Under the pieces are notes generated by a model that saw nothing but the letters and a program-made list of their open reading frames with translations, did no database searches and was not told the origin of the DNA. A program made the position numbers and the translations under genes. Shown one piece after another: positions 1-61,663 of a stretch of DNA of 64,000 nt (the first letter of the stretch is position 1; each line of letters begins with the position of its first letter). This stretch comes from a virus: positions 1 to 64,000 of the IMG/VR virus record IMGVR_UViG_3300043331_000919; one strand, 5' to 3'.

Positions 1-2
1 GT

Positions 3-5185: not shown

Positions 5186-5307
5186 TCCACGACCACGCGC
5201 CCCAGCCAGGCCCGGACTACTGGTCCTGGCGCTGCCTGGCTTGCGGAGAGCCTGTGCGCGAGCACGTTGGCCTGATCCGCCGCCTGATCCGGAGGTGGTT
5301 CGGGTGA
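5182..5307 (+). CDS. very small protein with one zinc knuckle (41 aa)
   Basis: ATG overlaps the preceding stop (ATGA) and its TGA overlaps the terminase GTG, so it is embedded in the coupled operon. It contains WRCLACGEPVREH with a single CxxC and a basic end (RRLIRRWFG). Single-knuckle proteins of this size usually pair ligands or dimerise around zinc. The gene may mainly serve translational coupling to the terminase. Confidence 0.5.
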   Translation: MIHDHAPQPGPDYWSWRCLACGEPVREHVGLIRRLIRRWFG

Positions 5308-6971
5308 GCGCCATCCCGATGCTCACCGAGGACGAGATGTACCTGGCGGCCATCCTCGACGACGCTTCGGGCGTTGAGCTCGCCGAGTTCTGCTGGATCG
5401 ACGAGGAGCAGGAGGACGCCTGCTTCCGCCTCTGGGACTACCAGTGGGTCTGGTATCGCAACGAGGCCACCTACCAGATCGACTGGTGTGGCCGAGCCGT
5501 CGGCAAGTCCGTCGGCATCCAGATGCGTGCCTTCGCGTTCCCGTTCAACTACCCGGGTGCCGAGATGCTGATCACCGCGCCCGAGCTCAACCACCTGCGG
5601 CCCATCACCGACAAGGTCGAGCACCTGTTCCGCCACACCCGGCTCGGCTCCGCGATGCTGCCGGCCACCCGCGGCGGGGGCATCAACCACCAGCCCCAGT
5701 TCCAGGCGCACTTCATCAACAACTCCCGGATCATCAGTCGCCTCCCGAACCGCGACGGCCGCGGCGTGAAGGGCATGCACCCCCTCGTCATCGAGATGGA
5801 CGAGGGGCAGGACTACCCCGACGCTGGCTGGATCGAGATCATCGAGACGATGAAGGCCGGCTCGGTCGGCGCCCAGTGGCGGGTCCACGGGGTGTCCCGA
5901 GGCATCCGGGACCGCTACTACCGCTACACCATGGGCGAGGACCCGGACATCCCCTTCAAGGTGCACCGCTATATGGCCATGCACCGGCCCAGCTGGGGCC
6001 CGGACGAGCGCAAGGCCAAGATCGCGATCTACGGCGGCACCGAGGACAACGTCGACTACCGCCGCAACATCTACGGCGACCACGGCGACGCCACCAACCC
6101 GGTCTTCGTGCTCAGCCGACTCATGGCCTGCGTCCGGATCAACGAGAGCCCGTGGGCCTCGGAGTACAACGACACCGTCTACCGGCAGATCAAGATCAAC
6201 GACGAGCTGCTGCAGTCGATCGGCAACGTCGAGCACTTCCTCGACCTGCCCGGCAACCACCTGCACGAGCGCTACTCCTCGTACTGGGGCGGCATGGACG
6301 TCGGCTTCACGCGCGACCCCAGCGAGATCCTGATCTTCGGCGTGACCAAGCACCCCAGGGACAAGGACGCCGACCTCCACCGCCTGCTCGCCCGGGTCCA
6401 CATGATGCGGATCTCGGCCGACGACCAGGCCGAGGTGGTGAAGTTCCTGATGAACTTCTACGGCGACCGGCTCCGCGCGTTCGCCATGGACAAGACGGGC
6501 AACGGCCTGCCGCTGTGGCAGGCGCTCGACCCGGAGGCCGTTGGAACGTCCGTTCACCTGCGCCGCACGCCGCAGCACCTGGCCCGGAAGATCCGCGGCT
6601 ACGGCTTCTCGAACAAGGTCGCCGTCGAGTTCGACGACCGGGAACTGAAGGGCAAGGAGCGCCCCGAGGACGCCGTCATCCAGCGCAACGTCGTCGACTT
6701 CGCCACCGACGAGCTCCGCAAGCTGGTCGACCTCAACCGCATCGAGCTGCCGTACGACCGCGAGCTGCTCACCGAGTGGCAGGGCCAGGAGATCCAGTAC
6801 CAGCGCGACGAGGGGTCCGCGGCCGGCCTGAAGTCCCGACGCTACGGCGGCGGCTCCTTCCACACCCTCGACGCGGCCAAGATGTTCATCGCAGCCAAGC
6901 AGCTGGAGGCGATCGAGGCTGCGCTGAACATCACGAGGCAGCGGGGACCGGTTCTCGCCCGATTCGGATAG
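5304..6971 (+). CDS. terL: terminase large subunit (packaging ATPase-nuclease)
   Basis: The 555-residue protein is the DNA-packaging motor. The ATPase domain shows a Walker A variant CGRAVGKS at about 62-69, as in many siphovirus terminases, and a Walker B with catalytic Glu in LVIEMDEGQD (161-170). The C-terminal RNase H-like nuclease domain begins near GGMDVGFTRDP, with D332 as first metal ligand, and continues through AMDKTGNG. I chose GTG at 5304, four-base overlap with the preceding gene and GGAGG upstream, over a longer frame. It contains an AACGTCCGTT site (6545-6554). Confidence 0.93.
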   Translation: MSAIPMLTEDEMYLAAILDDASGVELAEFCWIDEEQEDACFRLWDYQWVWYRNEATYQIDWCGRAVGKSVGIQMRAFAFPFNYPGAEMLITAPELNHLRPITDKVEHLFRHTRLGSAMLPATRGGGINHQPQFQAHFINNSRIISRLPNRDGRGVKGMHPLVIEMDEGQDYPDAGWIEIIETMKAGSVGAQWRVHGVSRGIRDRYYRYTMGEDPDIPFKVHRYMAMHRPSWGPDERKAKIAIYGGTEDNVDYRRNIYGDHGDATNPVFVLSRLMACVRINESPWASEYNDTVYRQIKINDELLQSIGNVEHFLDLPGNHLHERYSSYWGGMDVGFTRDPSEILIFGVTKHPRDKDADLHRLLARVHMMRISADDQAEVVKFLMNFYGDRLRAFAMDKTGNGLPLWQALDPEAVGTSVHLRRTPQHLARKIRGYGFSNKVAVEFDDRELKGKERPEDAVIQRNVVDFATDELRKLVDLNRIELPYDRELLTEWQGQEIQYQRDEGSAAGLKSRRYGGGSFHTLDAAKMFIAAKQLEAIEAALNITRQRGPVLARFG

Positions 6972-28935: not shown

Positions 28936-28977
28936 GCCGAAGTACACCGGTGAGAGCCGTCGCCAGGGGAGGTGGAC
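28936..28977 (+). promoter_or_regulatory. short intergenic region with GCCGAAGT element
   Basis: GCCGAAGT (28936-28943) directly follows the stop codon and continues as ACACCGG, sharing CGAAGTACACCG with the copy before 40491. An SD (GGGGAGGTGG) lies before ATG 28978. Confidence 0.4.
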
Positions 28978-29439
28978 ATGAGACTGGATCGCACCCACGT
29001 CACTCGGGCTTCGCGAGTGATGCTGCCGACGTACGTCGTCTTCAGCATCGCCCTCGGAGAAGCGTGGATCCTGCAGGACCCCTCGCGCCACTCCTACGCC
29101 CTGCAGCAGCTCGACCAGGTGTGGCCCCTCGCGGGAACGGGCGTTCTACTCATCGCGCTGGGGTCCTGGCTGGCATGCGGCCTCCTGGTCCACTCTCGCG
29201 TCGTCGCCGCCACCGCGCTGGCGACCGGGGCCGTGGCCTACTTCCTGCTCGGCGTCATCTTCGTCTACGACGCCGGCTACCAGCCGACCGACACCTTCCC
29301 CTTCTTCCGTGCGGGCGTTCCCGAGGCGTCACTCTCCGCGCCGTTCTGGCCATGGTTCGTCATGGTCGCCCATCTCGCCAGCCTGCTCTCCCTCACTCGG
29401 GACGAGGTCGGCGACTTCCGCGAGAGGAGCCGGCGATGA
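28978..29439 (+). CDS. membrane protein, possible second holin
   Basis: The 153-residue product has about four hydrophobic segments: 14-28, 48-68 (LAGTGVLLIALGSWLACGLLV), 74-94 and 118-135. It ends in a charged tail. It heads a three-gene set of small membrane proteins before the replication genes. Lysis (holin) or superinfection exclusion are both possible. AACGGGCGTT occurs at 29136-29145. Confidence 0.55.
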   Translation: MRLDRTHVTRASRVMLPTYVVFSIALGEAWILQDPSRHSYALQQLDQVWPLAGTGVLLIALGSWLACGLLVHSRVVAATALATGAVAYFLLGVIFVYDAGYQPTDTFPFFRAGVPEASLSAPFWPWFVMVAHLASLLSLTRDEVGDFRERSRR

Positions 29440-29810
29440 TCTCGCAGGCCATCGACCTCAGCCCCCTCCAGGCCGCGATCGCAGTGATCCTCGGCCTGGC
29501 CACGCTTGCCACCATCGGGGGTGGCTTGTACGCCGTCTTCCGCTCGGCCGCGCAGGACTCCCGCATCAAGCGGCTGCAGGACGAGCGAGACGACTACCTG
29601 TCGAGGCTCAACTACGTCGAGCCTCGACTCGTCAGGGCCGAGGAGCAGAATGAGATGCTTCGCGAGCTGCACAATCCCACGCAACACCTCGTGGATCTGA
29701 AGGGGCAGGAGCAGCGCAACCACGACGAGATCGTCAAGATCCTTGACGACCAGACGCGCACGCTCCGTGACGCCATCAGCCACAGCCACCCTCCCGATAG
29801 GACGAGCTGA
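29436..29810 (+). CDS. small membrane protein with coiled coil
   Basis: The 124-residue protein has one N-terminal membrane segment (about 10-34, AAIAVILGLATLATIGGGLYAVF) followed by a long coiled coil (about 40-115). This type II topology is typical of phage holin- or spanin-associated proteins. ATG overlaps the previous TGA. Confidence 0.6.
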   Translation: MISQAIDLSPLQAAIAVILGLATLATIGGGLYAVFRSAAQDSRIKRLQDERDDYLSRLNYVEPRLVRAEEQNEMLRELHNPTQHLVDLKGQEQRNHDEIVKILDDQTRTLRDAISHSHPPDRTS

Positions 29811-30247
29811 TGATCGACTACCCCCCCAACATGGAGCGTGAGTGGAGCGAGGAGGACGAGGCGACCTACCGTCGCGCCCTCTGGCTGAAGCGTGCCGTGG
29901 TGTTCTTGTGCGGCACCGTGGCGCTACTCAGCGTCGCCGTGGCCACAATCGTGACGGTCTCCATCCGGCTCGACCAGCTGGACAACACCGCGGCCATCGA
30001 GGCGTCGACCGTAGCGGCGGAGAACGCCAGGAAGACCGTCGAGCGCATCGAGGACTGCACCACCCCGGGGCAGAAGTGCTTCGAGGACGGGCAGCGCCGC
30101 GCCGGCGTCCTGGTGCAGAACCTCAGCGACGTGATCATCCTCGCCTCGGCCTGCGCCTCGAAGCCGTACGAGCAGACGCCAGCCCAGATCGAGGTCTGCG
30201 TGCGCCAGAAGCTGGCCGCTCAGATCGCGGCCCAGAAGCAGCGCTGA
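29810..30247 (+). CDS. small single-pass membrane protein
   Basis: The 145-residue protein has an acidic N-terminus, one membrane segment at about 29-52 (AVVFLCGTVALLSVAVATIVTV) and an extracytoplasmic helical domain with four Cys in two pairs (DCTTPGQKCFE; SACAS and VCVR), which could form disulfides. It completes the membrane trio and is followed by a regulatory region. Function unknown. Confidence 0.6.
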   Translation: MIDYPPNMEREWSEEDEATYRRALWLKRAVVFLCGTVALLSVAVATIVTVSIRLDQLDNTAAIEASTVAAENARKTVERIEDCTTPGQKCFEDGQRRAGVLVQNLSDVIILASACASKPYEQTPAQIEVCVRQKLAAQIAAQKQR

Positions 30248-30423
30248 CTCACCTGGGTGGACTAGGTCACCGGGACCATCGGGACCAGTTCCGGCCTCAA
30301 CGGGCGTTCGCTCAACGACACGCCGAAAGGTCTTGAATCCGCCGGGTGACATGCGTGTAACGTCCCGTCTGCCGAACTGAGAACAGCGAATCTCAGTCAC
30401 ACCATCTCAGCAGCGGGGGATCA
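30248..30423 (+). promoter_or_regulatory. regulatory region before the replication/recombination genes
   Basis: This 176-base gap holds AACGGGCGTT (30299-30308), CCGAAAGGTCTTGA (30323-30336), TGACATGCGTGTAA (30347-30360; compare TGACACGCGTGTC at 59401-59413) and an inverted repeat CTGAGA/TCTCAG near 30376-30395. TTGAAT with TGTAAC 17 bases later is a plausible -35/-10 pair. It is the most element-rich intergenic region in the window and probably drives the 30.4-33.9 kb block. Confidence 0.5.
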
Positions 30424-30624
30424 GTGAAGTATCTCGGGGACCGGACCGGGCATTACGACCACGGCCGGGGCACCGGCCTTGTGGGCAAGGTCGTCGGGCC
30501 GAACGTCAACGGCCAGTGGTTCGTCGTTGTCGGCGCCTCCTACGACGATGAGACCGACACGACGCACGTCGAGGTGGAGCCGATCCTCGACCCCGCCACC
30601 ATGCTCGACAGGAAGGCCCAGTGA
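30424..30624 (+). CDS. small hypothetical protein (66 aa)
   Basis: GTG start, preceded by a G-rich SD (GCGGGGGA). The sequence (GRGTGLVGKVVGPNVNGQWFVVVGASYDD) is compatible with a small SH3-like barrel. Its stop overlaps the next GTG. No known function. Confidence 0.5.
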   Translation: MKYLGDRTGHYDHGRGTGLVGKVVGPNVNGQWFVVVGASYDDETDTTHVEVEPILDPATMLDRKAQ

Positions 30625-31631
30625 CCTTGCAGCAGCTCGACGTCGACCTCGACTACGCCGAGGGGAACTACCTGAAGCCCAACGGGCTCGGTGGCTACAT
30701 CATCAGCGTCTCGGCCCTCCAGTCCTGGTCCCGCTGCCAGCTGCAGCGCTTCTACGAGCTCCGGGCCCGCCACGACCCCGAGGCGCCACAGGGGGACGTC
30801 CTGTCCGCCAGCGCCTACGGCAACGTCGTGCACTACGCCCTGCAGGCCATGGAGCTCGCCATGCACGAGGGCCGCGAGGACGCGCTGGAGGTCGGCCTGC
30901 GGACCTTCGAGCACTACTGGCACCCCGACAACATCACCGCGGTCACCCCGCGGATCACCGAGTGGCTCCCGCGGCAGACCTACGGCGGTCTCCGCGAGCG
31001 GGGCCGGCTCACCATCCGCGACCACCACTCGATGCTCCAGAGCGACAAGTCCTACGTGCTCGGCCTGGAGTACCCGTTCGCGGTCCCGATCGAGATCCGC
31101 GGCCGGGTGCACACCCTCCACGGCTTCGTCGACCGGCTCGCGATCCGGCAGCACTACCGCAAGCCCTACGTCAGCCTCGACGACAACAAGACCGGCAAGC
31201 AGCCGACCTTCCTGCGCTACCACATGCAGGGCACCGTCTACGGCTACGCCAGCACGCTCCCGGAGTTCTGGTGCGGCTGGCCCGAGTCCGGGCTCGGGGA
31301 GATGGAGCACTTCGACGAGGCCGAGGTCGAGCGGCTGGAGAAGCTGTTCGCCAGCTGGGACTTCCGACTCCACCGCGGCCTCCCCGGCGACGAGCCGCTC
31401 GCCTCGCGACGGTTCCGCTGGATCAACCTGCAGGAGATCAAGTTCGCCGACGGCGGCTGGCGCACCGAGCAGGACTACGCCCGCATGTTCCTCGGCGTCG
31501 ACGCCTACGTCCGGTCCAGCGAGGCCGGCATCTACTCCGTGAACACCACCGGCGAGGTCTGCCGCTACTGCTCGTTCCGCAAGGACTGTGGCGGCGTCGG
31601 CCTCCCCCACGAGACGGCGGGAGCCCCCTGA
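30621..31631 (+). CDS. Cas4/RecB-like PD-(D/E)xK exonuclease
   Basis: The 336-residue protein has the motif order of the PDDEXK_1/Cas4 family: an early Cys (C39), GNVVHYALQAME with H71, GFVDRLAI with D171, SLDDNKTGK with the D-x-K at about 188-190, and a C-terminal CRYCSFRKDC. Together with C39 these would make a four-Cys iron-sulfur site. Such nucleases process DNA ends in phage recombination, and the nearby Sak4-like ATPase supports that. Starts at GTG with a GTGA overlap. Confidence 0.8.
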   Translation: MTLQQLDVDLDYAEGNYLKPNGLGGYIISVSALQSWSRCQLQRFYELRARHDPEAPQGDVLSASAYGNVVHYALQAMELAMHEGREDALEVGLRTFEHYWHPDNITAVTPRITEWLPRQTYGGLRERGRLTIRDHHSMLQSDKSYVLGLEYPFAVPIEIRGRVHTLHGFVDRLAIRQHYRKPYVSLDDNKTGKQPTFLRYHMQGTVYGYASTLPEFWCGWPESGLGEMEHFDEAEVERLEKLFASWDFRLHRGLPGDEPLASRRFRWINLQEIKFADGGWRTEQDYARMFLGVDAYVRSSEAGIYSVNTTGEVCRYCSFRKDCGGVGLPHETAGAP

Positions 31632-31960: not shown

Positions 31961-33004
31961 GTGGATCTCTCCTCTCGGGACGTGGCTGAGTCATGGCTCG
32001 ACGCTCCCGTCGCAACGGGCGTTGTCGACCTGCAGTCGACCGGTCTCGTCGCCACCGATCAGGACGTCGCGAGGCTCTCGCGGCCCCAGCGCGAGGACCG
32101 CGTCACGCGCCTGCTGGAGGTCAGCCACCAGCTGGTCGACTACGCGATCCGGGAGCACATCACCGACGCCGGCAAGACCCACGTCGGCACCGCGGTGCTC
32201 TACTCCGGCGGCAACGACTCCACGACCCTCGCCCACATTTTCCGGCAGCGCGCCACCCACGCGATCCACGCCAACACCGGCATCGGCGTCGAGGCCACCC
32301 GCGAGTTCGTCCGCGAGACCTGCGACCTGTGGGGTCTGCCGCTGATCGAGAAGCACCCGCCGACGTCGTTCCGCGACCTCGTGCTCGACCAGGGCTTCCC
32401 CGGTCCGGCGCACCACTACAAGATGTACCAGCGCCTGAAGGAGCGGTGCCTCCGTCAGGCCCGCCGCGACCTGGTTGCGAACGGTCGGAAGCAGCGGGTC
32501 GTGTTCCTCGCTGGCCGCCGACGGGAGGAGTCCGCCCGGCGCGCCAGCGTCCCCGAGATGGAGCGCGACGGCGCTGTCGTCTGGGTCTCGCCGCTGGTGC
32601 TGTGGACCAAGCTCGACCTGAACACCTACCGCCTGATGATGCAGGCCGTCGGTGACGACGTGCCGCGCAACAAGGTCTCCGACCTGATCCACATGAGCGG
32701 CGAGTGCCTGTGCGGCTCGTTCGCTCACGCCGGAGAGCTGGAGGAGATCGGTGAGTGGTTCCCGGAGGTTCGCGCGGAGATCGAGGCGCTGGAGGCCGAG
32801 GTGCTCGCCACCGGCAAGCATCCGGAGTGGCGCTGTCGCTGGGGCTGGGGCGCCGACAAGGACGTCATCCAGAAGCTGCGCAAGCAGGGCATGCCGGACG
32901 CCGAGATCGCGGCGCTGTTCGAGCGCTCCACGTCGGGCCCGCTCTGCTCGTCCTGCGACTCCCGGGCGGACGGCGGCACGGTGATCTCGGGAGGGGGCTC
33001 CTGA
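31961..33004 (+). CDS. PP-loop ATPase, PAPS reductase/DndC-like (first of a pair)
   Basis: The 347-residue protein has an intact PP-loop, YSGGNDSTT (residues 81-89), characteristic of the PAPS reductase/ATP sulfurylase superfamily, which adenylates substrates with ATP. Cys groups follow at GECLCGS (about residue 248) and CSSC (about residue 333), suggesting a metal or cluster. Residues 2-14 read DLSSRDVAESWLD, an N-terminal copy of the WLD peptide. Homologues occur in DNA phosphorothioation (DndC), tRNA thiolation and many phages, so DNA or tRNA modification is plausible but unproven. AACGGGCGTT is at 32014-32023. Confidence 0.75.
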   Translation: MDLSSRDVAESWLDAPVATGVVDLQSTGLVATDQDVARLSRPQREDRVTRLLEVSHQLVDYAIREHITDAGKTHVGTAVLYSGGNDSTTLAHIFRQRATHAIHANTGIGVEATREFVRETCDLWGLPLIEKHPPTSFRDLVLDQGFPGPAHHYKMYQRLKERCLRQARRDLVANGRKQRVVFLAGRRREESARRASVPEMERDGAVVWVSPLVLWTKLDLNTYRLMMQAVGDDVPRNKVSDLIHMSGECLCGSFAHAGELEEIGEWFPEVRAEIEALEAEVLATGKHPEWRCRWGWGADKDVIQKLRKQGMPDAEIAALFERSTSGPLCSSCDSRADGGTVISGGGS

Positions 33005-33867
33005 TGGTGGACCTGACCTCTCGGGCCGCGGTCGAGTCATGGCTCGATCACCCCTCGCCAACGGTCGTTGTCATGTACTCGGGCGGCAAGGGCTCCTGGG
33101 CCGCTGCTCGCCACGTCCGCGACATCTGGGGCATCCCGGCCGACCAGATGAAGCTGCTGTTCACCGACACCAACGGCGAGGACCCCGACCTCTACCGGTT
33201 CCTGCAGGAGTCCGCTGACGACATCGGTGCCGAGCTGATCGTGCTCGACAACGACGGGCGGACGATCTGGGACGTCTTCCGCAAGCAGCGCATGATCGGC
33301 AACACCCGGCTCAGCGTCTGCTCGCGGGTGCTGAAGCAGGAGCCGGCCCGGCGGTGGCTCGAAGCCAACACCGACCCGGACCGCACCGGCGTGATCGTGG
33401 GCATCGACTGGACCGAGACGCACCGACTGCCGGCGATCGAGCGGAACTACCTGCCGTGGACCGCGCTCGCGCCGCTCTGCGAGCCCGGAGCGTGGTCGAA
33501 GGACCGGATCTCCAAGGAACTCGCTGCCGTCGGCATCGCGGAGCCGCGGCTGTACGCCATGGGCTTCCCGCACAACAACTGCGCCGGCGCCTGCGTTCGC
33601 GGCGGGCAGGGCCAGTGGGCGCTGCTGCTCCAGCACAACCCCGAGCGGTACGCCCAGGAGGAGGCGGAGGAGAACCGGTTCCGCGAGGAGACCGGCAAGG
33701 ACGTCGCGATCCTGCGAGATCGCCGCGGGGGCACCACCAAGCCCCTCACCCTCACTGCGCTGCGTAAGCGCATCGAGGGTGAGGGCGAGGTCGACATGGA
33801 TGACCTCGGTGGTTGCGGGTGCATGACCGACCTCACGAGTGAGGAGCAGGCACGAGCCCCCGGATGA
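33004..33867 (+). CDS. PP-loop ATPase, PAPS reductase family (second of a pair)
   Basis: The 287-residue protein has MYSGGKGSWAAA (residues 24-35), in which the usual SGGxDS Asp is Gly, as in a phage subgroup I recall. CSRVLK and a Cys motif NNCAGACVRGGQGQW (about residue 195) plus CGCM near the C-terminus complete the family features. Residues 3-15 (DLTSRAAVESWLD) again carry the WLD peptide, with strong DNA similarity to the preceding gene's N-terminus. The pair probably act together. AACGGTCGTT lies at 33060-33069. ATG overlaps the preceding TGA. Confidence 0.72.
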   Translation: MVDLTSRAAVESWLDHPSPTVVVMYSGGKGSWAAARHVRDIWGIPADQMKLLFTDTNGEDPDLYRFLQESADDIGAELIVLDNDGRTIWDVFRKQRMIGNTRLSVCSRVLKQEPARRWLEANTDPDRTGVIVGIDWTETHRLPAIERNYLPWTALAPLCEPGAWSKDRISKELAAVGIAEPRLYAMGFPHNNCAGACVRGGQGQWALLLQHNPERYAQEEAEENRFREETGKDVAILRDRRGGTTKPLTLTALRKRIEGEGEVDMDDLGGCGCMTDLTSEEQARAPG

Positions 33868-47204: not shown

Positions 47205-47436
47205 GCTCGGCCGGCGGCGCGTCCACTCGCTCCAGGCAGTCCGCGTCGAGCACGATCCCCTTGGAGCCCGAGTCGTCGGGGGCCTTCACGAACAGCAGGG
47301 TGACGACCCCGTCCTCGCGCAGCTCAGGCACCTCGGCGCGGGCGAGCACCACCTCGCCGACGTCCCACCAGCAGTTGCGGTGGGCGCCGTACAGCGTGGG
47401 CGACTTCACGACGCGGTAGCGCAGCCAGGCGCTCAC
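47149..47436 (-). CDS. small barrel protein with WLA-type tail
   Basis: The 95-residue product (WWDVGEVVLARAEVPELREDG, GVVTLLFVKAPDD, IVLDADCLERVD) is a small beta protein ending ELSRESVEAWLATDEPEEP, a WLD-family peptide with extra residues. Its 3' end overlaps the HNH gene antisense. GTG start with four-base overlap to the upstream gene. Function unknown. Confidence 0.6.
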   Translation of the reverse strand: MSAWLRYRVVKSPTLYGAHRNCWWDVGEVVLARAEVPELREDGVVTLLFVKAPDDSGSKGIVLDADCLERVDAPPAELSRESVEAWLATDEPEEP

Positions 47437-48452
47437 GAACCCTCCCGGATCGCCTTGGCCTCCTCGCGAGCCCGCGCGAAGCCGTAGTCGGTGAGCTTGC
47501 GGCCCCGGCCGGTGATCGTGATGAGCCCGCGCTGCAGCAGCTGCTGCTCGTGGTGGTGGATCGGGCCCGGCTCGTTGAGGTTCGCCCGGATCGAGTCAGC
47601 CGACATGGTCCGCCCCTCGGCGAACGCGAGCAGGATCAGGATCTCCCGAGCGATCACGGTCAGGCCGTCGGCGGAGACGCCGGCCCACCGAAACGCCGTG
47701 GCCAGGTCGGGGTGACCCTCGGGCGCGGCGTACGACAGGTCCCGCACCCCGGTGAGGATCTGCCTCATCACCCGCGGGTTGCAGTCGGCGGCCCGGGCGA
47801 TCTGCCGGAAGTGCTCGTCGGCGAGGCCGGCTACCTGCATCCGCTCGGCGAGCGATGCGGCGATGCAGGCGCCCTCCTGGTCGGAGTACGGCACGATCGT
47901 GGGCTGAACCATGAAGCGGGAGATGAGGGTCTGGGGCAGGCGGCCAACGTCCGTTGTCGCCGCCACCACCGTGATGTGGGGCATCTCCTCGGCGCCGCGG
48001 CTGGTGTAGAGCACGCCCTCGGTCATGAACGGCAGCAGCCAGTCGGCGCGGTTCCGGTTCCCCGAGGTGAGCAGGTGCGCCTCGTCGATGAACAGGATGT
48101 CCCGATCCTCCATCGCCGACATCAGCGACTTCGCCTCGCCGGCGGTCAGCGGGCCGGTGGTCTGTACGAGACCCACCTCGGCGTGCCCGGCGATCAGTGC
48201 GGCCAGCGTCGACTTGCCGACGCCGTGCAGGCCCGACGCGAGCAGCGTGTGGTCGATCCGCGCGCCACGGGCTCGGGCTGACGCGATCGCGACCTGCAGC
48301 TGGTGCTTGGCCTCGGTCTGGCCGACGAAGCCGTCCCAGGTGCGCGGGTAGTCGGTGCCCTCGAAGATGGCCTCGCCGCGCTTCGGCGCCGGCGTGGCCG
48401 TGTCTTGGTCACTGAACAGGTCGTCCAGGATGTGCTGCGGGATGCCTCCCAC
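47433..48452 (-). CDS. RuvB-like AAA+ ATPase
   Basis: The 339-residue protein has RuvB features: an N-terminal TWDGFVGQTEAKHQLQVAI, Walker A ASGLHGVGKST (about 72-82), Walker B ILFIDEAHLL (119-128), sensor 1 VVAATTD and an arginine-finger segment LISRFM. A C-terminal winged helix follows (LLQRGLITITGRGRKLTDYG). RuvB drives Holliday-junction migration with RuvA. No ruvA or ruvC is visible here, so it must use host partners or act on its own. GTG start with GAGGAG upstream. AACGTCCGTT at 47946-47955. Confidence 0.83.
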   Translation of the reverse strand: MGGIPQHILDDLFSDQDTATPAPKRGEAIFEGTDYPRTWDGFVGQTEAKHQLQVAIASARARGARIDHTLLASGLHGVGKSTLAALIAGHAEVGLVQTTGPLTAGEAKSLMSAMEDRDILFIDEAHLLTSGNRNRADWLLPFMTEGVLYTSRGAEEMPHITVVAATTDVGRLPQTLISRFMVQPTIVPYSDQEGACIAASLAERMQVAGLADEHFRQIARAADCNPRVMRQILTGVRDLSYAAPEGHPDLATAFRWAGVSADGLTVIAREILILLAFAEGRTMSADSIRANLNEPGPIHHHEQQLLQRGLITITGRGRKLTDYGFARAREEAKAIREGS

Positions 48453-50888: not shown

Positions 50889-51027
50889 CGAGGAACTCCT
50901 CCGCTCCATCGCGGGTCGACAGGTCAGGACGCTCGGCCACCCGTTCGGACTCCTGGATCCGGCGGGTCGCCGGGCAGTCGCGGGGCTCATGGTCTCCGTC
51001 GCAAAGTCCGCAGTATGCGTCAGTCAT
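50881..51027 (-). CDS. tiny zinc-knuckle protein with FLD tail (48 aa)
   Basis: The frame from ATG 51025-51027 reads TDAYCGLCDGDHEPRDC, a Cys3/His knuckle, and ends RPDLSTRDGAEEFLDD, a WLD-family tail with Phe for Trp. Its stop lies inside the next gene's start region, and its tail DNA provides that gene's SD (GGAGGAG). It overlaps the upstream gene by 8 bases. Too short for most gene callers but well supported by context. Confidence 0.62.
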   Translation of the reverse strand: MTDAYCGLCDGDHEPRDCPATRRIQESERVAERPDLSTRDGAEEFLDD

Positions 51028-52006
51028 CGAGCATCGCCTCCCGCAGGCCGCGGAGCGCCTCGTGCGCCACCTCCGCGGCAGCCGCCGTCACGTCCTGGTT
51101 CACCTGCAGGTTCTCCATGTGCTCCGTCGCGTTGTTGAGCACCTCGTCGTAGCGGGCCTGCAGCTTGGCGTACGCCGCCGGCGTGATCGACTTCCGCGTC
51201 GACAGCAGCTCGTCGACCTCGCGCGTCAGGTCGCGCAGCGACTGGCTGGCCTCCCGCTCGAACACCTTCGCCATGAACGCGCGTTCCCGCTCTAGGTCGA
51301 CCATCGGGATCATGTTCATGTGGCAGCCACCGCCGAAGCGGCTGACCAGATCTGCGACCCGGGCGAGCTCGTCGTCACGACTGGAGTGCACGAAGTAGAC
51401 GCCGCCCTTGATCTCGATGGCGTTGAGCTTCTTCAGGTAGCTGCGGATGCAGCCGCGGACCTTCTGGCCGTCGAGGAAGTCGTAGTAGTCGTGGTAGCGC
51501 GACACGATGTCCTTCGCCACCTGCTGCACCAGGGTGAGCTCGCCCTTCTCCAGGTTGGTCGGGTTCACCTGCACGCGCAGGTGGGCGGCGCTCTGGTCGT
51601 CGGCCTTGGTGGGCCGGTAGAAGGTGCAGGTGATCGCCTCGGTGTAGGAGAGCCGGCGCTTGCCGCCGTCCTTGACCTCCCGGGTGATCTGGCGGGTGAT
51701 GTAGTTCGGCGTCGAGGAGACCTCGCGGCACAGCAGGTTGCCGGTGCGGTCCTTGGACATCGGGTAGGTGTCCTTGGTGTCCGAGGTGGCCTTCTTGAAG
51801 GCGTCGAGGTACTTGTTCGGCGCCGGCAGGTAGGCCTCGTCGAGGTCGAGGTCGCGGAACCACTTCACCATGTCGTCGCGTCGGATGGGCTCGTCGGTGA
51901 TCGTGAACAGCACGATCCGGCCGAGCAGAACGTCCGTTGGTAGGTCGTTCAGCTCGTCGATGTACGCCCGGAGCTCGGACGGCTTGGACTTCTTCGCTGT
52001 GGCCAT
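51020..52006 (-). CDS. conserved actinophage protein (DUF6744-like, 328 aa)
   Basis: The product (LRAYIDELNDLPTDVLLGRI, WFRDLDLDEAYLPAPNKYLD, DLVSRFGGGCHMNMIPMVD, then a helical C-terminus) resembles a roughly 330-residue family frequent in actinophages that I recall as DUF6744. The DFLDGQKVRGCIRSYLKKL segment is a likely conserved core. Function unknown. Its leader carries CCTCAACGGGAGG, also found before Ku. Two palindromes occur (51276-51285, 51929-51938). Confidence 0.68.
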   Translation of the reverse strand: MATAKKSKPSELRAYIDELNDLPTDVLLGRIVLFTITDEPIRRDDMVKWFRDLDLDEAYLPAPNKYLDAFKKATSDTKDTYPMSKDRTGNLLCREVSSTPNYITRQITREVKDGGKRRLSYTEAITCTFYRPTKADDQSAAHLRVQVNPTNLEKGELTLVQQVAKDIVSRYHDYYDFLDGQKVRGCIRSYLKKLNAIEIKGGVYFVHSSRDDELARVADLVSRFGGGCHMNMIPMVDLERERAFMAKVFEREASQSLRDLTREVDELLSTRKSITPAAYAKLQARYDEVLNNATEHMENLQVNQDVTAAAAEVAHEALRGLREAMLDD

Positions 52007-53293: not shown

Positions 53294-54847
53294 TCAGATC
53301 GTCCGGAACAGTTCCTGCACGCCCTCGGGGGAGGCGTTCAGGCTGTTGATGTTCATGCAGCGGTCGGCGAGATCCTTCAGGTTGTTGCGGAACGGCTCGC
53401 CACCGATCTGCAGCCCGTAGCAGCGGATGCCGGCGGACTCGCGCAGCTCGCGCCACTCCTCGATGAACTCGGGGCTGACCCGGCAGTCGTCGTCGGTGAT
53501 GAAGACGACGTCGGGCAGGTCGCGCCCGCCGCGCTGGTAGTCGCGCACGATGTTCGCGGCCATGGCGATGGGCCGCTCGTACTGCGTGCCGCCGGAGAAG
53601 AAGTGCTCGGTGAACTCGATGACCTTCTCGATCGCCATGACGCCGCCGGGGAAGTCGATGCGCCACTGCTGGCTCGGGCTGGAGAAGCCGATGTAGGTGA
53701 AGTCCCGGCCGCCCCGGCGCGCCTGGTCGCACAGCGCCAGCGCCACGGCCTTCGACCACGCCTCGCGGGTGTTGCCCTCGTCGTCGACGCGAGCGCCCAT
53801 CGAGCCGGACTCGTCGCAGACCACGATGATCGGGCCCTTGCCGGCGCGCTCCGGGCCCACGGTCTCCCACTGCATGAGCTGGTGCCGGTGGTAGCGCAGC
53901 CAGAACTGGTCCTCCAGCTCAGGGATCGCCAGCGCGTTGATCTCGTTGGCGACCAGCTTCGCGATGTCGCGGCCAGTGGTGACGTCGCGGCGCTCGGCCG
54001 GCGCGCCGGTGACCTTGCGACGACGCTCGGCGTCCGCGAACTGGCGGAACGCGCCCACGAGGTCGGCGAGCTGCTTGATCTTGCCCCGGTCCAGGCGCTC
54101 CGCGAGGCGCCGGCGCTCCTCGAACGACATGCGCTGCAGCGTGCCGTCCTCCACGCCGTAGCCCTGCATGGCCTCCTGCTCGGCCTCGATCTTGTCCGCG
54201 GCGTCCTTCAGGCCCTTCTTCACCTGCTCCTTGGCCTGCTCGGCGTTCGCCTCGGCGTCGCCCTCGGCCTGCGCCATGGCGGCCATCGCCTGCGCGAGCG
54301 ACTCCGCGGCCTCCTCCTGGCCCTCGCCACTCTGCTGGGCCGCCTGCGCCGCTGCCAGCGCCTCCTGCAGCGCCTGCTGTGCTTGCGCGACGGCCTCGTT
54401 GATCTCGTCGGCGGCCTGCATCATGTCGTCCATGCGGTCGCGCATCGTGATCATGGCCAGCGCGGTGTTGTACTCGTCGAGCTTGGTGTGTGACCGGATG
54501 TAGGAGAACTCCTCGTCCTCGAACATCTGCCCGAGCATCGCGTGCTGCGCGACGTACTCCGGCTTCATCCGCGCCTGCTCGGTGAACCGCGGGTCTGCCT
54601 GGTTGAGCAGGTTGAACAGATCCTGGTAGCCGGCGCGCGCGGTGTCACGCTCCTCGGCGGCCTCGTTGACCTGCTCAGCGAGCGCGGGCACCTGGTCCAG
54701 CGTGGTGAGGTAGGCGAACCGGTCGAACCGGTCGAACTTCACCGCGTGCGTCTCGGTCGGTGTGACCGGCTTCGACGCGGCGACGGGGTCGTCCCAGAAG
54801 TCGTCGCCCTGCGCCTTCGCGATCATCTTGTCGAGGTACTCGCTCAT
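53294..54847 (-). CDS. VWA-domain protein, partner of the MoxR ATPase
   Basis: The 517-residue protein has a long acidic Ala/Gln/Glu coiled-coil region (about 140-235), a basic helical stretch, then a von Willebrand A domain with a complete MIDAS: CDESGSMG (344-351), SGGTQYERP (Thr) and VFITDDDC (Asp). This architecture resembles ViaA/CoxE/CobT-type partners of MoxR AAA+ ATPases. Such pairs remodel or insert cofactors into target proteins. The MoxR gene lies 860 bases upstream in the same operon. Start ATG is four bases inside the upstream stop. Confidence 0.85.
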   Translation of the reverse strand: MSEYLDKMIAKAQGDDFWDDPVAASKPVTPTETHAVKFDRFDRFAYLTTLDQVPALAEQVNEAAEERDTARAGYQDLFNLLNQADPRFTEQARMKPEYVAQHAMLGQMFEDEEFSYIRSHTKLDEYNTALAMITMRDRMDDMMQAADEINEAVAQAQQALQEALAAAQAAQQSGEGQEEAAESLAQAMAAMAQAEGDAEANAEQAKEQVKKGLKDAADKIEAEQEAMQGYGVEDGTLQRMSFEERRRLAERLDRGKIKQLADLVGAFRQFADAERRRKVTGAPAERRDVTTGRDIAKLVANEINALAIPELEDQFWLRYHRHQLMQWETVGPERAGKGPIIVVCDESGSMGARVDDEGNTREAWSKAVALALCDQARRGGRDFTYIGFSSPSQQWRIDFPGGVMAIEKVIEFTEHFFSGGTQYERPIAMAANIVRDYQRGGRDLPDVVFITDDDCRVSPEFIEEWRELRESAGIRCYGLQIGGEPFRNNLKDLADRCMNINSLNASPEGVQELFRTI

Positions 54848-55453: not shown

Positions 55454-55710
55454 CCCGCCCGCTCCTCGTCCCACCTGACCTGATCGCCGAGCACGTCGCG
55501 GGTCAACGACAGCGCCTCGCCGCGGATCGCGCCCTTCAGCGCCTTCAGGGCCTCCATCACGAGCGGGCTGGCGGTCTCCACGACCACCACCGCGGAGCCG
55601 TGCTCCACGCTGGAGCCGAGGCAGACCTGCGCCTGCACGCCGCGCTTCAGCTCGCGGATCCCGCGCACCTCGCCCTTCAGCATCGAGGTGCCGTTGCTGA
55701 CGGTGCTCAT
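55450..55710 (-). CDS. small conserved hypothetical (86 aa)
   Basis: The product has GVQAQVCLGSSVEHGSAVVVV and ALKALKGAIRGEALSLTRDVLG, a beta-alpha pattern. It lies directly downstream of the MoxR gene with a four-base overlap. It could be an adaptor for the MoxR/VWA pair; this is inference from position only. Confidence 0.55.
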   Translation of the reverse strand: MSTVSNGTSMLKGEVRGIRELKRGVQAQVCLGSSVEHGSAVVVVETASPLVMEALKALKGAIRGEALSLTRDVLGDQVRWDEERAG

Positions 55711-56936
55711 CGCTGGCCCCCGTCGCCCATGCCCAGGCGCTTCTGGAGCATGATCTCGGCCTCGGCCTCCGGCTGCTCCAGGCAGACCATGAAGGCGCGC
55801 TTCAGGGTCCGGCGGTGCAGGTCGGAGACCTCCTTGAACTGCGGGATGCGGCGGCCGTCGGCCTCCATCAGCATCGTGTCGAGGCGGTTGCGGGCGTCGG
55901 CGAGCTTGCGGTTCGCCTCCTTGCCGTACGCCTGTCGCGCGTCGGTCTGGTCGTTGCCGCTCGCGTCCGGCCCGGTGCGCTCGGTGATGCCGTCGTCGAC
56001 CTGCTTGATCGCGTCGCGGATCTCCAGCAGCGGCTCGACGAACGGGTTGGCGGCCGACAGGCACAGCCGCGAGACCTTGTCGATCTGCTCGACGGTGTCC
56101 CACAGCGTGAAGCGGAGCACGACCAGGTCGTCCTCCAGCACCTCGTCGCGACCGTCGAGGAAGGCGTGCGCCTGCAGCGCGCGCATCGAGGCGCGCCAGC
56201 GACGGTCGGAGGGGTAGAGGTGCTCGCGGGTGAACGCGGCCTTCAGGCTGGCGAGCGCCTGGAGTGCGCGCTCGTCGATCTTCACGGCCGGCACGACGTC
56301 GTCGATGACGTCCTTCAGCTCCATCCACTCGATCTCGGTCTCGGGCGCCTTCATGTCGCCCACGAGCAGCTGGCGGAAGTTGTCGGTGTCCTGCAGGTAG
56401 TCCACGACCACCCGGAACAGGAGTCGGTCCCACAGGGCCGCGGCGTCGTCGGACTCCGCGGTCACCATCTCGTTGGACGCGGTGAACGCCGTCGACAGCG
56501 GCGCCGGGTGGCTGGAACGCCCGTTCTCGACCTCGTGGTAGAGCCGCTCGTTGAGCAGCGCCAGCAGGTCGTGGCCGAGGATGCTCGACATCTTGCCGAT
56601 CTCGTCCAGGAAGGCGAACTCCACCTGCGAGGCGAAGTGCTCGCGCTTCAGCACGTAGTCACCGGTCTCGCGGAACCGCTTCACGTCCAGCGGGCCCATG
56701 ACCGCCTCGGTGGGGCGGGTCTTGGAGAGCAGGGTCTCGAAGTAGCGCGCGCCCATGAAGGTGCGCACCATGGCGCGGACCAGGTCCGACTTCGCGGTGC
56801 CCGGAGGGCCCAGCAGGAAGACGTGCTGGCCGCTCAGGACCGCTAGGAGCATCGCGAGGATGGCGTCCGAGCGCTCCAGGTAGGTCGCGTTCAGCTCGTC
56901 CCGCAGGGCGTTGAGCTTGGTGGCGATGGGGTGCAT
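55707..56936 (-). CDS. MoxR-family AAA+ ATPase
   Basis: The 409-residue protein has Walker A LLGPPGTAKSD (41-51), Walker B VEFAFLDEIGKM (105-116), and sensor 1 FTASNEM (151-157) of the MoxR/RavA branch. These ATPases act with VWA proteins as chaperone-like remodelers, consistent with the gene at 53294. The C-terminal part is helical (VVLRFTLWDTVEQIDKVSRL) with a RavA-like ending. AACGCCCGTT lies at 56516-56525. Target in this phage unknown. Confidence 0.87.
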   Translation of the reverse strand: MHPIATKLNALRDELNATYLERSDAILAMLLAVLSGQHVFLLGPPGTAKSDLVRAMVRTFMGARYFETLLSKTRPTEAVMGPLDVKRFRETGDYVLKREHFASQVEFAFLDEIGKMSSILGHDLLALLNERLYHEVENGRSSHPAPLSTAFTASNEMVTAESDDAAALWDRLLFRVVVDYLQDTDNFRQLLVGDMKAPETEIEWMELKDVIDDVVPAVKIDERALQALASLKAAFTREHLYPSDRRWRASMRALQAHAFLDGRDEVLEDDLVVLRFTLWDTVEQIDKVSRLCLSAANPFVEPLLEIRDAIKQVDDGITERTGPDASGNDQTDARQAYGKEANRKLADARNRLDTMLMEADGRRIPQFKEVSDLHRRTLKRAFMVCLEQPEAEAEIMLQKRLGMGDGGQR

Positions 56937-56945
56937 GGTGTCCTC

Positions 56946-57848
56946 TCAGCAGCGCGGCAGGGCCGCGAGTTGGGTGGTGGTGCAGTCGGCGGGTGCAACG
57001 TCCGTTCGCAACCCGCGGAAGACCGGGAACCGCAGGGTGCCCCCGGACGTGATGTTGATGGTCTCGATCTCGCCGACGAGGAGCTCGCCAGCGTCGAGAC
57101 GGGACTTCAGGTCGTGCGTCTGGCGCTCGGTGAACCCAGAGCCACAACGACCGACTGGGACCACGGTCCCGCGCTCGTCCACCAGGGCGAGCAGCAGGGC
57201 GCCGAAGTGCTCGCGCGAGCCGCTGCCGGGCGTGTAGCCGGCGAGCAGGCACGAGACGCGGTGCAGGTGCTTGAACTTCACCCAGTCGCGCGAGCGACGG
57301 CCGAAGCGGTAGCGGGAGACGAGTCGCTTCGCGATCACGCCCTCCATGCCCATGGCGCGGGTCTGCGTCCACAGGCTCATGTCGTACGACACCGGCGCGA
57401 TCAGCACGCCGTCGTCGGCGAGGCGCTCCAGGCGCTCGCGACGCTCGCTCCACGGCTGCTTCGCGAGCGCCGGCAGGTCGAAGGCCACGAATCGACAGGG
57501 GTGCTCGTCAGCGGCCCGGCGGATCTTCGCGGTGATCGACTGCGACTCGCGCATGAGCGTGGTCTCGAACGATCCGTTGACGGCCACGATCTCGCCGTCG
57601 AGCCAGCCGTGTCGGCTGCCCCCGGATTGGTCCGTCATGGCGGCGACGACCTCCGGGAAGATCCGGGCCACGTCGACGCCCTTGCGGTTCAGGATCCGGC
57701 CGTCCGGCATCAGCATGGCCCGCACGCCGTCGAGCTTCGTGTCCAGCACCCAGTCGCCGGTCGCCATGAGTTGGTCCACCTGGACCGGGTCGCGACCGGA
57801 GGCGCCGGTACTGGCGCTCGCGAGCATGGGGAGGAACTCGGCCTGCAT
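56946..57848 (-). CDS. ATP-dependent DNA ligase (LigD ligase-domain type)
   Basis: The 300-residue protein carries the nucleotidyltransferase motifs: DTKLDGVRA with the adenylated Lys (K38), DGEIVA (84-89), EGVIAK (169-174) and WVKFK (189-193). An OB-fold domain follows (LAGYTPGSG, FGALLLALVDERG). It resembles the ligase domain of LigD that works with Ku. I chose the ATG at 57846-57848, one base overlapping the upstream stop; a start seven codons further in the same frame upstream is possible. AACGTCCGTT at 56997-57006. Confidence 0.87.
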   Translation of the reverse strand: MQAEFLPMLASASTGASGRDPVQVDQLMATGDWVLDTKLDGVRAMLMPDGRILNRKGVDVARIFPEVVAAMTDQSGGSRHGWLDGEIVAVNGSFETTLMRESQSITAKIRRAADEHPCRFVAFDLPALAKQPWSERRERLERLADDGVLIAPVSYDMSLWTQTRAMGMEGVIAKRLVSRYRFGRRSRDWVKFKHLHRVSCLLAGYTPGSGSREHFGALLLALVDERGTVVPVGRCGSGFTERQTHDLKSRLDAGELLVGEIETINITSGGTLRFPVFRGLRTDVAPADCTTTQLAALPRC

Positions 57849-58213
57849 CAGTTCTCCCAGATCCGCCACTCGGCGGACTCGACCTCGCCCGCGAACATCA
57901 GGCGCTCCTGAATCTCGGGGTCACTGGGGCCACCCTCGCCGAGCGAGTCCTCGGCGTCGCCGGCGTGCGACACGTCGCCCTCGTCCCAACGGACGTTGGG
58001 GAAGACCTCGCGCATCTCGGCCTCGGTCAGCGTGATGCTGCGTACGACCTTCTCGGTCTTGCAGATCGTGAACGTCCGCGGGGCGCGGACCTCCTCAGCC
58101 TCCCAGTGCCAACCGTTGCCGATCTTGTCGCAGGCTCGGTCGATGGCCTCCTCCTCGGTCTCGGCCTCCACGTTCATCGTGTAGTGGCCGGACACCTGAA
58201 ACTGCTTGCTCAT
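57848..58213 (-). CDS. hypothetical protein between ligase and Ku (121 aa)
   Basis: The N-terminus (QFQVSGHYTMNVEAETEEEAIDRACDKIG) has the pattern of small alpha/beta domains with a DpnD/PcfM-like or ASCH-like start. The C-terminus is acidic. AACGGACGTT lies at 57988-57997. Its location in the ligase-Ku interval suggests an end-joining accessory, but that is only context. Confidence 0.55.
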   Translation of the reverse strand: MSKQFQVSGHYTMNVEAETEEEAIDRACDKIGNGWHWEAEEVRAPRTFTICKTEKVVRSITLTEAEMREVFPNVRWDEGDVSHAGDAEDSLGEGGPSDPEIQERLMFAGEVESAEWRIWEN

Positions 58214-58554
58214 GACTCCCCCTCTCCGAAGTCGAAGTTCTCGTCGCCGACGATCTCGCGGAACGCGCGCGTCGACTCCAGCTCGGCACCGACCAGCAGC
58301 CCGAGCTCGAATGCGGCCAGCGGGATCGTCGCCTCGGCGCGCTGCTCCGCGGTCTCGCGGTCCACGCCCTCGCGCAGCAGCTGCATCTTGATGAGCGTCT
58401 GCCCACCGCCGAACAGCGCCTGCAGCGCCTGTGCAGTCTCGGCGTTCATCCAGCCGATCTGGATGCCCTGGCTGTGCATGATCCGCTTCGCGATCGTGAT
58501 GACCTGCTCGCTGCGCCGGTTGTTCGGCGGCGGGCCGGCTGGGGTGGCGGTCAC
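58210..58554 (-). CDS. helical protein downstream of Ku (114 aa)
   Basis: GTG overlaps the Ku stop. The product is mostly helical (EQVITIAKRIMHSQGIQIGW, TAEQRAEATIPLAAFELGLLV) with acidic Phe-rich C-terminus (DENFDFGEGES), an SSB-like tail. No family recognised. Confidence 0.55.
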   Translation of the reverse strand: MTATPAGPPPNNRRSEQVITIAKRIMHSQGIQIGWMNAETAQALQALFGGGQTLIKMQLLREGVDRETAEQRAEATIPLAAFELGLLVGAELESTRAFREIVGDENFDFGEGES

Positions 58555-59348
58555 TTCTTCTTCGCTCCCTTCGCGAGCTTCTGCATCTGCGCGATCAGGT
58601 CGTCGTCGCTGACCTTGGCGGCCACGGCCGGCGCGTCCTTGCCCGGCAGGGCCACGGTCTCGCCCTCGGCGAGCATCGCGTCGAGCGCCTGCCCGTACTT
58701 GTCCTCGTACGCCGCAGGGTCGTAGTCGGTCAGGAGGCTCGGCAGCATGCCGTCGAGAGCCGCGTACAGGGCATCGTTCACCACGCCACCGACACTCGGG
58801 GCGGGCTTCACGTTGTCCTGTCGCGCCCGCTTCTCCAGGCACAGCACGCCCTCGCGGACGGTGAGTCGGAACAGCGCGGTCGCGCTCGACGGCGTGTAGA
58901 GCCCGGCGAAGGCCAGCTCGGGGTGCTCGGCCACCAGCCGGGTGAGCAGCTGGTAGTGGTCCGCGGCGCCCGCGTCGGCCGGCGTCAGGTAGTGCAGCGT
59001 GTCGCCCGGGCCGGTGGCGGTGAGGAACTGCTCCGCGGGGTGGGCGACCAGGGACAGGGCGTCCTTGTACTGGCCGCTGTACTCCTCGCGCGCCTCGCCG
59101 ATCGCCTCCTTGTCCACCAGCGTGTAGGTCGAGCCGGTCTTGATGCCCTTGGAGAGGGTGTCGTAGTCGGTGATCGGACCGCACTTCGCGCACTGCTTCG
59201 GCGCCTGCACCGGCAGGTGCTCGTGCTCGGGCTTGCCCGGCTGACCGGAGCACAGGTTGCTCATGGTCGGGGGCCTGGTGATCGCGACCTCGGACTTCGC
59301 GGCGACTGAGAGCAGCCCGAACTGCAGGGTGATCTTGCGTGCTGCCAT
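58551..59348 (-). CDS. Ku-like DNA end-binding protein
   Basis: The 265-residue protein matches the bacterial/phage Ku core: ITLQFGLLSVAAKSEVAI at residues 6-23 (the SFGLVxIPVKL element), a zinc knuckle KQCAKCG (51-57) and the following DYDTLSKGIKTGSTYTLVDKE. Ku forms a ring on double-strand ends and recruits ligase. Mycobacteriophages Omega and Corndog are known to encode Ku for end joining at short cohesive ends. The ATP ligase lies three genes downstream. Start ATG follows CCTCAACGGGAGG. Confidence 0.82.
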   Translation of the reverse strand: MAARKITLQFGLLSVAAKSEVAITRPPTMSNLCSGQPGKPEHEHLPVQAPKQCAKCGPITDYDTLSKGIKTGSTYTLVDKEAIGEAREEYSGQYKDALSLVAHPAEQFLTATGPGDTLHYLTPADAGAADHYQLLTRLVAEHPELAFAGLYTPSSATALFRLTVREGVLCLEKRARQDNVKPAPSVGGVVNDALYAALDGMLPSLLTDYDPAAYEDKYGQALDAMLAEGETVALPGKDAPAVAAKVSDDDLIAQMQKLAKGAKKK

Positions 59349-60546: not shown

Positions 60547-60704
60547 CGCAGGTTCTCCTCTCGTGGTTCGTGCTCGGCGACGAATGTGTCGTGGGCGTCG
60601 CAGGTCTCGCGCCACAGGCGGTCGTCCCCCGTCGCCTCGGGGTCCACCCAGCGGCCGTCCTCGTCCAGGCAGATCGACCGGCCACAGTGCTTGCAGATCC
60701 TCAC
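60543..60704 (-). CDS. small zinc-finger protein (53 aa)
   Basis: GTG start. RICKHCGRSICLDEDGRWVD and RETCDAHDTFVAEHEPRE give a Cys4/His-type finger resembling small zinc proteins in Streptomyces and phages that begin with ICKHCGR. Overlaps both neighbours. Role unknown. Confidence 0.62.
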   Translation of the reverse strand: MRICKHCGRSICLDEDGRWVDPEATGDDRLWRETCDAHDTFVAEHEPREENLR

Positions 60705-61663
60705 AGCTTCCCCCCTCCGATCAGCGTGACGGCCGCGTGAGCCGCGGCCAGGCGGTGTCCGAGCCACTCGGCCATGCCGACGTGCATGGCGTTGCCGAGC
60801 ATCTGGTAGCGCGCGGAGTCCGGGGCGCCGGTGCCAGCGGTCCAGTCGTCCGGGAAGCCTTGGAGCCGCTCCCACTCGGTCAGGGTCAGCGTTCGCAGGT
60901 GTCCGCCCTGCGAGATCAGGTGGGTCTGCCGGGCCGGACCGCCGCCATCGAAGCCGGTCAGCGTGTTCGCCATGCCGTCGGCGACCCAGGTCTCGTAGCC
61001 ACCCTTGCTCACGGCTGCTCGGGCTCGGGCGGACTTTCGCCAGACAGCATCGAACGCAGCGCCTCCAGCAGGTGCGGGTCCGCACGGTGCCCGCCGGACT
61101 CGATCCGCGGCAGCAGTTTCTCCGCCGAGCTCGGGGTCACCCAGAACCGACCATGCGAGTCGGGGGTCGCCTCCACGATGTCCGACCACGAGGACTCGCT
61201 CGCGTCGCTGGGGCGTGCCGAGGTGTCGCCCGTCCACCACTCGATACGCCCACCCATACCCGAGGTCCCCCAGGACACCGAAGATGGTGGCTGCGTCCCG
61301 CCCCCCGTTGCTCCGGAGGAGTCCGGTGGGGTTCTCGATGACCACCCAGCGGGGCTTGGTGTCGTCGAGGATCCGGGCGAACTCGAAGAAGTGCCCGGAT
61401 CGTCTTCCCGCGAGGCCGGAGCGATGCGGGGCGGCGATGGAGGTGTCCTGGCAGGGGAAGCCTCCTGCGGCGACGTCAGCGCGCGGTAGATCCGATCCGG
61501 CAACGTCACTGATATCTCCCATCAGTTGGGTGTGTGAGAAGTGGCGGCGCAGCACGCGCTGGCAGTGGGCGTCCCACTCGACCTGGCATGCGGTCTCGAT
61601 GCCGGCGCGACTGAAGCCGAGCTCGAATCCGCCGATGCCGGCGAAGAAGGAGTTGGCGATCAC
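60701..61663 (-). CDS. C5 cytosine DNA methyltransferase (Dcm type)
   Basis: The 320-residue enzyme has motif I SFFAGIGGFELGF (5-17), motif IV GGFPCQDTS with catalytic C71, motif VI VVIENP (108-112), motif VIII TPQRRERV and motif X YQMLGNAM. The target-recognition region is the variable part around 190-250. No restriction endonuclease adjoins it, so it is probably an orphan methyltransferase protecting phage DNA. CpG-containing sites such as the AACGNNCGTT palindrome are one conceivable target. GTG overlaps the upstream stop. Confidence 0.88.
   Translation of the reverse strand: MIANSFFAGIGGFELGFSRAGIETACQVEWDAHCQRVLRRHFSHTQLMGDISDVAGSDLPRADVAAGGFPCQDTSIAAPHRSGLAGRRSGHFFEFARILDDTKPRWVVIENPTGLLRSNGGRDAATIFGVLGDLGYGWAYRVVDGRHLGTPQRRERVLVVGHRGGDPRLAWSVLGDPELGGETAAADRVRRAPCGPAPAGGAAFDAVWRKSARARAAVSKGGYETWVADGMANTLTGFDGGGPARQTHLISQGGHLRTLTLTEWERLQGFPDDWTAGTGAPDSARYQMLGNAMHVGMAEWLGHRLAAAHAAVTLIGGGKL

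Follow-up and report, generated by a model that had tools for sequence, protein, structure and literature searches.

Can a phage carry both the protein that binds DNA ends and the ligase that seals them? The mycobacteriophages Omega and Corndog (clusters J and O) encode Ku and use the LigD of the host; their genomes are linear, and the ends, which have 4-base 3′ overhangs, need to be joined (PMC4351075, PMC3706429). Phage Ku has been described as acting with a host ligase (PMC7719229, PMC4351075, PMC3706429, PMC8136500), and Ku alone is described in PMC8136500 and in PMC11936186, which lists the Streptomyces phage BillNye with Ku. A survey of about 3,000 actinobacteriophages gave no hits to components of non-homologous end joining (NHEJ), though Omega and Corndog are cited there (PMC7719229). 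In the open-access literature searched, no phage is described as having both Ku and ligase.

The locus that raises the question lies in the window, i.e. the whole stretch of 64,000 nucleotides that was analysed, comprising bases 1-64000 of a virus record of 79,506 bp (G000; IMGVR_UViG_3300043331_000919). The gene layout was taken from a simple gene call (Table 1). With the terminase large subunit as marker, the record is that of a tailed phage. The terminase call is corroborated by comparison with phage GX15bay (MK557849, L093), to which the structural module at 5304-28504 is related (38% for the terminase and 42% for the putative capsid); the GX15bay record contains no Ku or ligase of the window type. 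The long leftward arm carries Ku, two small ORFs, the ligase, a MoxR ATPase and a vWA protein. The contig is broken within tail-like genes (window 1-242 and record end 77,843-79,506), and there is no direct join between the reading frames of its two ends, so that the record is not closed. A scan of bacterial genomes with the vWA protein returned mainly distant planctomycete homologues and one short Nonomuraea match, and so pointed to no host.

Table 1. Features of the phage genome discussed in the text; positions are those of the window unless another record is named.
Feature	Position	Strand	Remarks
Terminase large subunit	5304..6971	+	marks tailed phage and lineage; family found in 7/8 genomes with the pair
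Tape-measure-size ORF, 1607 aa	at 19838		gene call
Primase-helicase	at 36051		gene call; long leftward arm follows
RuvB-like AAA+ ATPase	47433..48452	-	in 8/8 genomes
DUF6744 protein (PF20529)	51020..52006	-	in 8/8 genomes
vWA-domain protein, partner of MoxR	53294..54847	-	DxSxS MIDAS motif; in 7/8 genomes
MoxR/RavA-type AAA+ ATPase	55707..56936	-	in 7/8 genomes with the pair
LigD-type ATP-dependent DNA ligase, 300 aa	56946..57848	-	nucleotidyltransferase and OB domains; no polymerase or phosphoesterase domain
121-aa ORF, no assigned function	57848..58213	-	weak PHROG 10677 and sub-threshold DpnD-PcfM matches
114-aa ORF, no assigned function	58210..58554	-	between Ku and ligase; 4-nt overlap with Ku
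Ku homologue, 265 aa	58551..59348	-	zinc ligands C33/H42/C53/C56; short Ku-like C-terminal helix
Conserved noncoding element, candidate cos site	G000 70,813-70,891 (L002 6,813-6,891; outside window); G024 ~25.33 kb; G004 ~22.14 kb; G023 contig ends; G022 left end		

Some further genes of the window are recorded here for completeness. A phage sigma-70-family factor (269-985) lies on the strand opposite to that of its homologues in the related genomes G023, G024 and G004. Two adjoining genes of the PAPS-reductase family (31961-33867), the second with an SspD-like PADLOC match, have a possible role in DNA modification or sulfur metabolism. Upstream of the Ku operon is a C5-cytosine DNA methyltransferase gene (60701-61660), with a homologue in G024 at 56-59% identity.

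The Ku reading frame has a good coding score and a ribosome binding site. Its product matches the bacterial Ku profile TIGR02772 (Ku_bact) with E=5.6e-9 and 35.8 bits against a curated cut-off of 150, and PHROG 4873 (Ku-like DNA end binding) with E=2e-5 over residues 6-257; the match to Pfam Ku (PF02735) gives E=0.1, 12.9 bits against a cut-off of 25. The scores against TIGR02772 and Pfam are thus below the curated cut-offs, too low for formal annotation. Comparison with the solved B. subtilis Ku by phmmer gives E=2.7e-5. An AF2 model made from the single sequence was useless (pLDDT 35), and one made from an alignment of six rows (the window and five relatives) has a pLDDT of 54, i.e. only moderate confidence. 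A fold search of the PDB with the latter places bacterial Ku first (9vnq at 9e-12, 9i91, 8v53) and Ku70/80 next, as expected of the Ku core fold. The C-terminal segment VSDDDLIAQMQKLAK, a candidate for LigD contact, lines up with VSDLLAKLEASVK of known Ku in the alignment. The agreement of the profile searches with the sequence and fold searches of the PDB supports assignment of the product as a divergent Ku homologue.

Translation of the ligase is better started at 57848 (giving 300 aa) than at 57869. The protein matches TIGR02779 with E=2.1e-50 (171.7 bits; cut-off 227.75), lies above the cut-off for both PF01068 and PF04679, and is fitted better by NHEJ-ligase profiles than by other ligase profiles. 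The motifs KxDG, LDGE, EGVIAK (EGxxxK) and WVKFK (WxKFK) are intact, and adenylation motifs I, III, IV and V are present in all eight genomes described below. Motif VI is altered, reading RTDV in the window where the LigD of M. tuberculosis has RPDK; across the eight ligases it is RTDV, RTDL or RSDL, so that the RxDK pattern is lost by replacement of lysine with V or L. There is no match to the LigD polymerase (TIGR02778) or phosphoesterase (TIGR02777) domains in G000, G001, G003 or G004, and by domain content a full multi-domain LigD is excluded for these four.

Ku and ligase are two ORFs apart. Ku and the two ORFs overlap by 4 nt each, the second ORF shares 1 nt with the ligase, and a gap of 9 nt separates the ligase from MoxR; because of these overlaps and the short gap, the five genes look like one tightly packed operon. 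These results bear out much of an earlier sequence-only reading of the locus, which proposed a Ku homologue with a zinc knuckle in one operon with an ATP-dependent ligase, and which looked to a profile search to place the former in the Ku family; TIGR02772 and PHROG 4873 do so, though under curated cut-offs. Its description of the ligase as having all core motifs holds for the four named above and was overstated for motif VI. The same reading made the two intervening genes part of the pathway. We have rejected this because they are not conserved: the relatives examined showed no counterpart of either, and have Ku next to the ligase or different genes between the two. PADLOC assigns no defence system to the Ku, ligase, MoxR and vWA block.

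The pair occurs well beyond this record. A search of IMG/VR, started with the MoxR of the locus and continued with alignments of Ku and of the ligase, gave seven further genomes and thus eight independent viral genomes with linked Ku and ligase (the window, L091, L092, L097, L122, L123, L124 and L129; L091 is the same phage as L090 and is counted once). Ku, ligase, the DUF6744 protein and the RuvB-like ATPase lie in a linked block in all eight, with MoxR and vWA in seven, and Ku and ligase always have the same orientation. Every Ku of the window type that we found is accompanied by the ligase. Their spacing varies, from adjacent in L091 to about 5 kb in L122, with other genes between them elsewhere. 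Chance pairing is excluded by this co-conservation.

The terminase family of the window is shared by seven of the eight at about 47-65% identity, and the Ku-ligase pair is therefore a trait of a phage lineage. We note that two of the terminase genes are enlarged: that of G001 (28,400-31,166; L120) has an intein-like insert beside the Walker A lysine within a 922-aa ORF, and that of G022 (82,797-86,699) apparently has two inserts in a 1304-aa ORF. Trees that included four lineage members among the sequences sampled place these in one clade both for Ku (support 100/100) and for the ligase (99/99). Since both proteins are monophyletic, the two genes were probably inherited together.

A tblastn search of 50,697 phage records with the window Ku gave no match, and the public phage Ku proteins retrieved are almost all from mycobacteriophage clusters J and O. 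Several candidates were set aside. L001, the first IMG/VR match for Ku, proved to be an unrelated protein matched by chance. L012 and L029 have Ku with a LigD containing the phosphoesterase (in L012 also the polymerase); these contigs, with bacterial Ku beside LigD domains, probably represent host DNA wrongly labelled viral in IMG/VR. In L026, a bacterial-type Ku at the edge of the contig lies next to a ligase of rhizobial type.

Whole genomes of three Ku-encoding mycobacteriophages (Firecracker, Baka and WXIN) contain no PF01068 ligase. Because the pair is kept in all eight genomes, and such a ligase is missing from these three, the earlier suggestion that a phage-supplied ligase makes the pathway more self-sufficient is a sensible one. 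Our preferred interpretation, to which we give a probability of about 0.58, is that the phage encodes a two-component end-joining module in which Ku bridges ends and the LigD-type ligase seals them, mainly in circularising the injected genome without host LigD. Ku would form a homodimeric ring on the DNA ends, protecting and bridging them after injection, and would recruit or stimulate the compact ligase, presumably by physical contact. Sealing would then give a circular template with no need of host LigD. Circularisation of the linear genome would be the main task of the module, with the mending of breaks made by host nucleases a second likely use. Against this stand the sub-threshold scores and weak model of Ku, the loss of the motif VI lysine in every ligase, and the presence of MoxR, DUF6744 and RuvB-like neighbours, which it leaves unexplained.

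Circularisation by this route would call for unique genome ends, and a candidate site was found. Both ends of the G023 contig lie in a divergent intergenic region, and when joined they give an unbroken alignment with a noncoding element that is intact in G024 and G004. The element comprises a CCCCCC-GTTA box, about 40 nt, AACGGCAG, a spacer of 4-6 nt and CTCTCGCGAT, and the break in G023 is located in the spacer; the boxes of this candidate end element (ACGGCAG/CTCTCGCG) are CCCCCC-GTTA, ACGGCAG and CTCTCGCGAT. A model built from the G023, G024 and G004 sequences, i.e. without the record of the window, finds the element in that record (E=0.002; next best 2.4) and, in a pooled search, in G001 (E=0.005; position about 17.22 kb). 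The left end of the G022 contig also falls within the element, exactly at the AACGGC box (E=0.73 alone), so that two independent contigs terminate there. The pattern ACGGCAG-N(3-7)-TCTCGCGAT occurs once in the record of the window, compared with 0.001 expected.

The terminase lies 13-14.4 kb downstream of the element in G023, G024 and G004; in the record of the window the distance is about 14 kb plus a gap of undefined size. This distance is like that in Corndog, a Ku phage with 4-base ends whose terminase is about 14 kb from the left end (PMC4351075). G023 has no terminal repeat, and the genome ends of Firecracker and Baka do not match the element. Deduction of the end type by comparing the terminase with those of Corndog and Omega relatives was abandoned, since profile comparison gave no usable match. 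The conserved element is probably the packaging end site of the genome; cleavage there would place unique ends 13-14 kb upstream of the terminase. Given the conserved element and the two contigs ending in it, joining of unique genome ends is plausible.

The same observations bear on the strongest rival, a general module for double-strand-break repair or counter-defence, in which Ku shields the phage DNA ends from nucleases of the host and acts together with the ligase in mending restriction or CRISPR breaks, with no special role in circularisation. NHEJ joins any ends, and Mu Gam provides an example of a Ku-like end protector (PMC1378119). The RuvB-like ATPase nearby, together with a PD-(D/E)XK nuclease and a Sak4-like annealing protein elsewhere in the genome, suggests a broad DNA-repair set. 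Furthermore, relatives assemble as circles, so that proof of defined ends does not extend to every genome: G004 closes by an exact overlap of 48 bp, and G001 with G002 closes to a circle of about 74.9 kb (calculated from the overlap coordinates), assemblies that would also fit permuted or concatemeric DNA. However, the end-like element and the two contigs that stop in it point to unique ends that need joining, and conservation in eight out of eight genomes suits a core step of the life cycle better than optional repair. We therefore consider a purely repair-based role rather unlikely.

The neighbouring genes could be drawn into a larger scheme, in which Ku, ligase, MoxR, vWA, DUF6744 and the RuvB-like protein form one viral DNA-end machine, the AAA+/vWA chaperone loading, remodelling or removing the Ku ring during joining, later replication or packaging. 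We regard this as quite doubtful. More modestly, the MoxR/vWA, DUF6744 and RuvB-like proteins may help to remodel a Ku-ligase complex; MoxR is absent across the whole G022 (L122) record. MoxR and vWA gene pairs are also present in other viral contigs (L098-L105), and those records contain no Ku or ligase of the window type.

It is improbable, too, that Ku and ligase are mere neighbours, with Ku using host LigD as in Omega and Corndog while the ligase seals nicks in phage replication or recombination. Viral contigs often carry a ligase of this broad family but no Ku. This counts against the two-component module as well, since sealing nicks could be all that the window ligase does. Ku was likewise present in only eight of 87 loci containing such a ligase, all eight belonging to the lineage (seven genomes), and a separate locus survey found Ku beside other viral ligases in three contigs only, all with bacterial-type Ku. 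The 5 kb between the genes in L122 would also be compatible with independent roles, and host LigD could still provide the polymerase and phosphoesterase activities missing from the phage. Yet all eight genomes with this Ku have a linked ligase in the same orientation, each protein forms a single clade, and NHEJ-ligase profiles give the better fit. Finally, it is highly improbable that the Ku-like protein has ceased to be a working end binder or been repurposed (e.g. for DNA condensation or transcription control): while its identity to known Ku is only about 20-24%, its Pfam score sub-threshold and its model of low confidence, it has homologues over its full length at about 30% identity, an ORF kept intact in eight genomes, constant linkage to the ligase, and a complete set of zinc ligands in seven of the eight (C33, H42 and C53 being conserved and the fourth Cys or His, with Ser in the remaining genome).

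We return to the two-component module and its relation to known systems. MoxR and vWA resemble RavA-ViaA in being adjoining genes for a MoxR AAA+ ATPase and a vWA partner with Walker and MIDAS motifs, but here they are phage-encoded and lie in an operon with Ku and ligase. Phage Mu likewise makes a DNA-end binder viewed as Ku-like, Gam, which is reported to promote joining with E. coli ligase (according to a passage of PMC8136500 citing that work); Gam belongs to another protein family, however, and has no phage ligase as partner. The LigD-like ligases of rhizobiophages (phiLM21, vB_RleM_PPF1 and many prophages) are also stand-alone phage ligases of NHEJ type, but they form a separate clade, with no phage Ku beside them in the loci examined (the Ku of L026 being bacterial in type). 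The bacterial NHEJ systems of M. tuberculosis and B. subtilis (Ku and LigD) share with the phage pair the Ku fold, the zinc ligands, the LigD-type ligase domain and the linkage of the genes; in contrast, the phage pair lacks the polymerase and phosphoesterase domains, has lost the motif VI lysine, and both of its proteins are very divergent.

In Omega and Corndog, as in the present phages, the phage gene for Ku is part of a long array of leftward genes. The Ku of Firecracker, Baka and WXIN is about 20-24% identical and falls outside the present clade, and profile comparison reveals no usable similarity of the terminases. Known Ku-encoding phages are thought to borrow LigD from the host, whereas the present group has its own Ku and a compact ligase, so that dependence on host LigD would not be expected. 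If this is true, the pair would make up a viral NHEJ system that is minimal and self-contained and could in principle function in hosts without NHEJ. It is compact enough for biochemistry, and the candidate end site makes the idea of circularisation directly testable. In its predicted domains, the unit of Ku and a ligase domain is less than LigD and more than the set used by Omega and Corndog.
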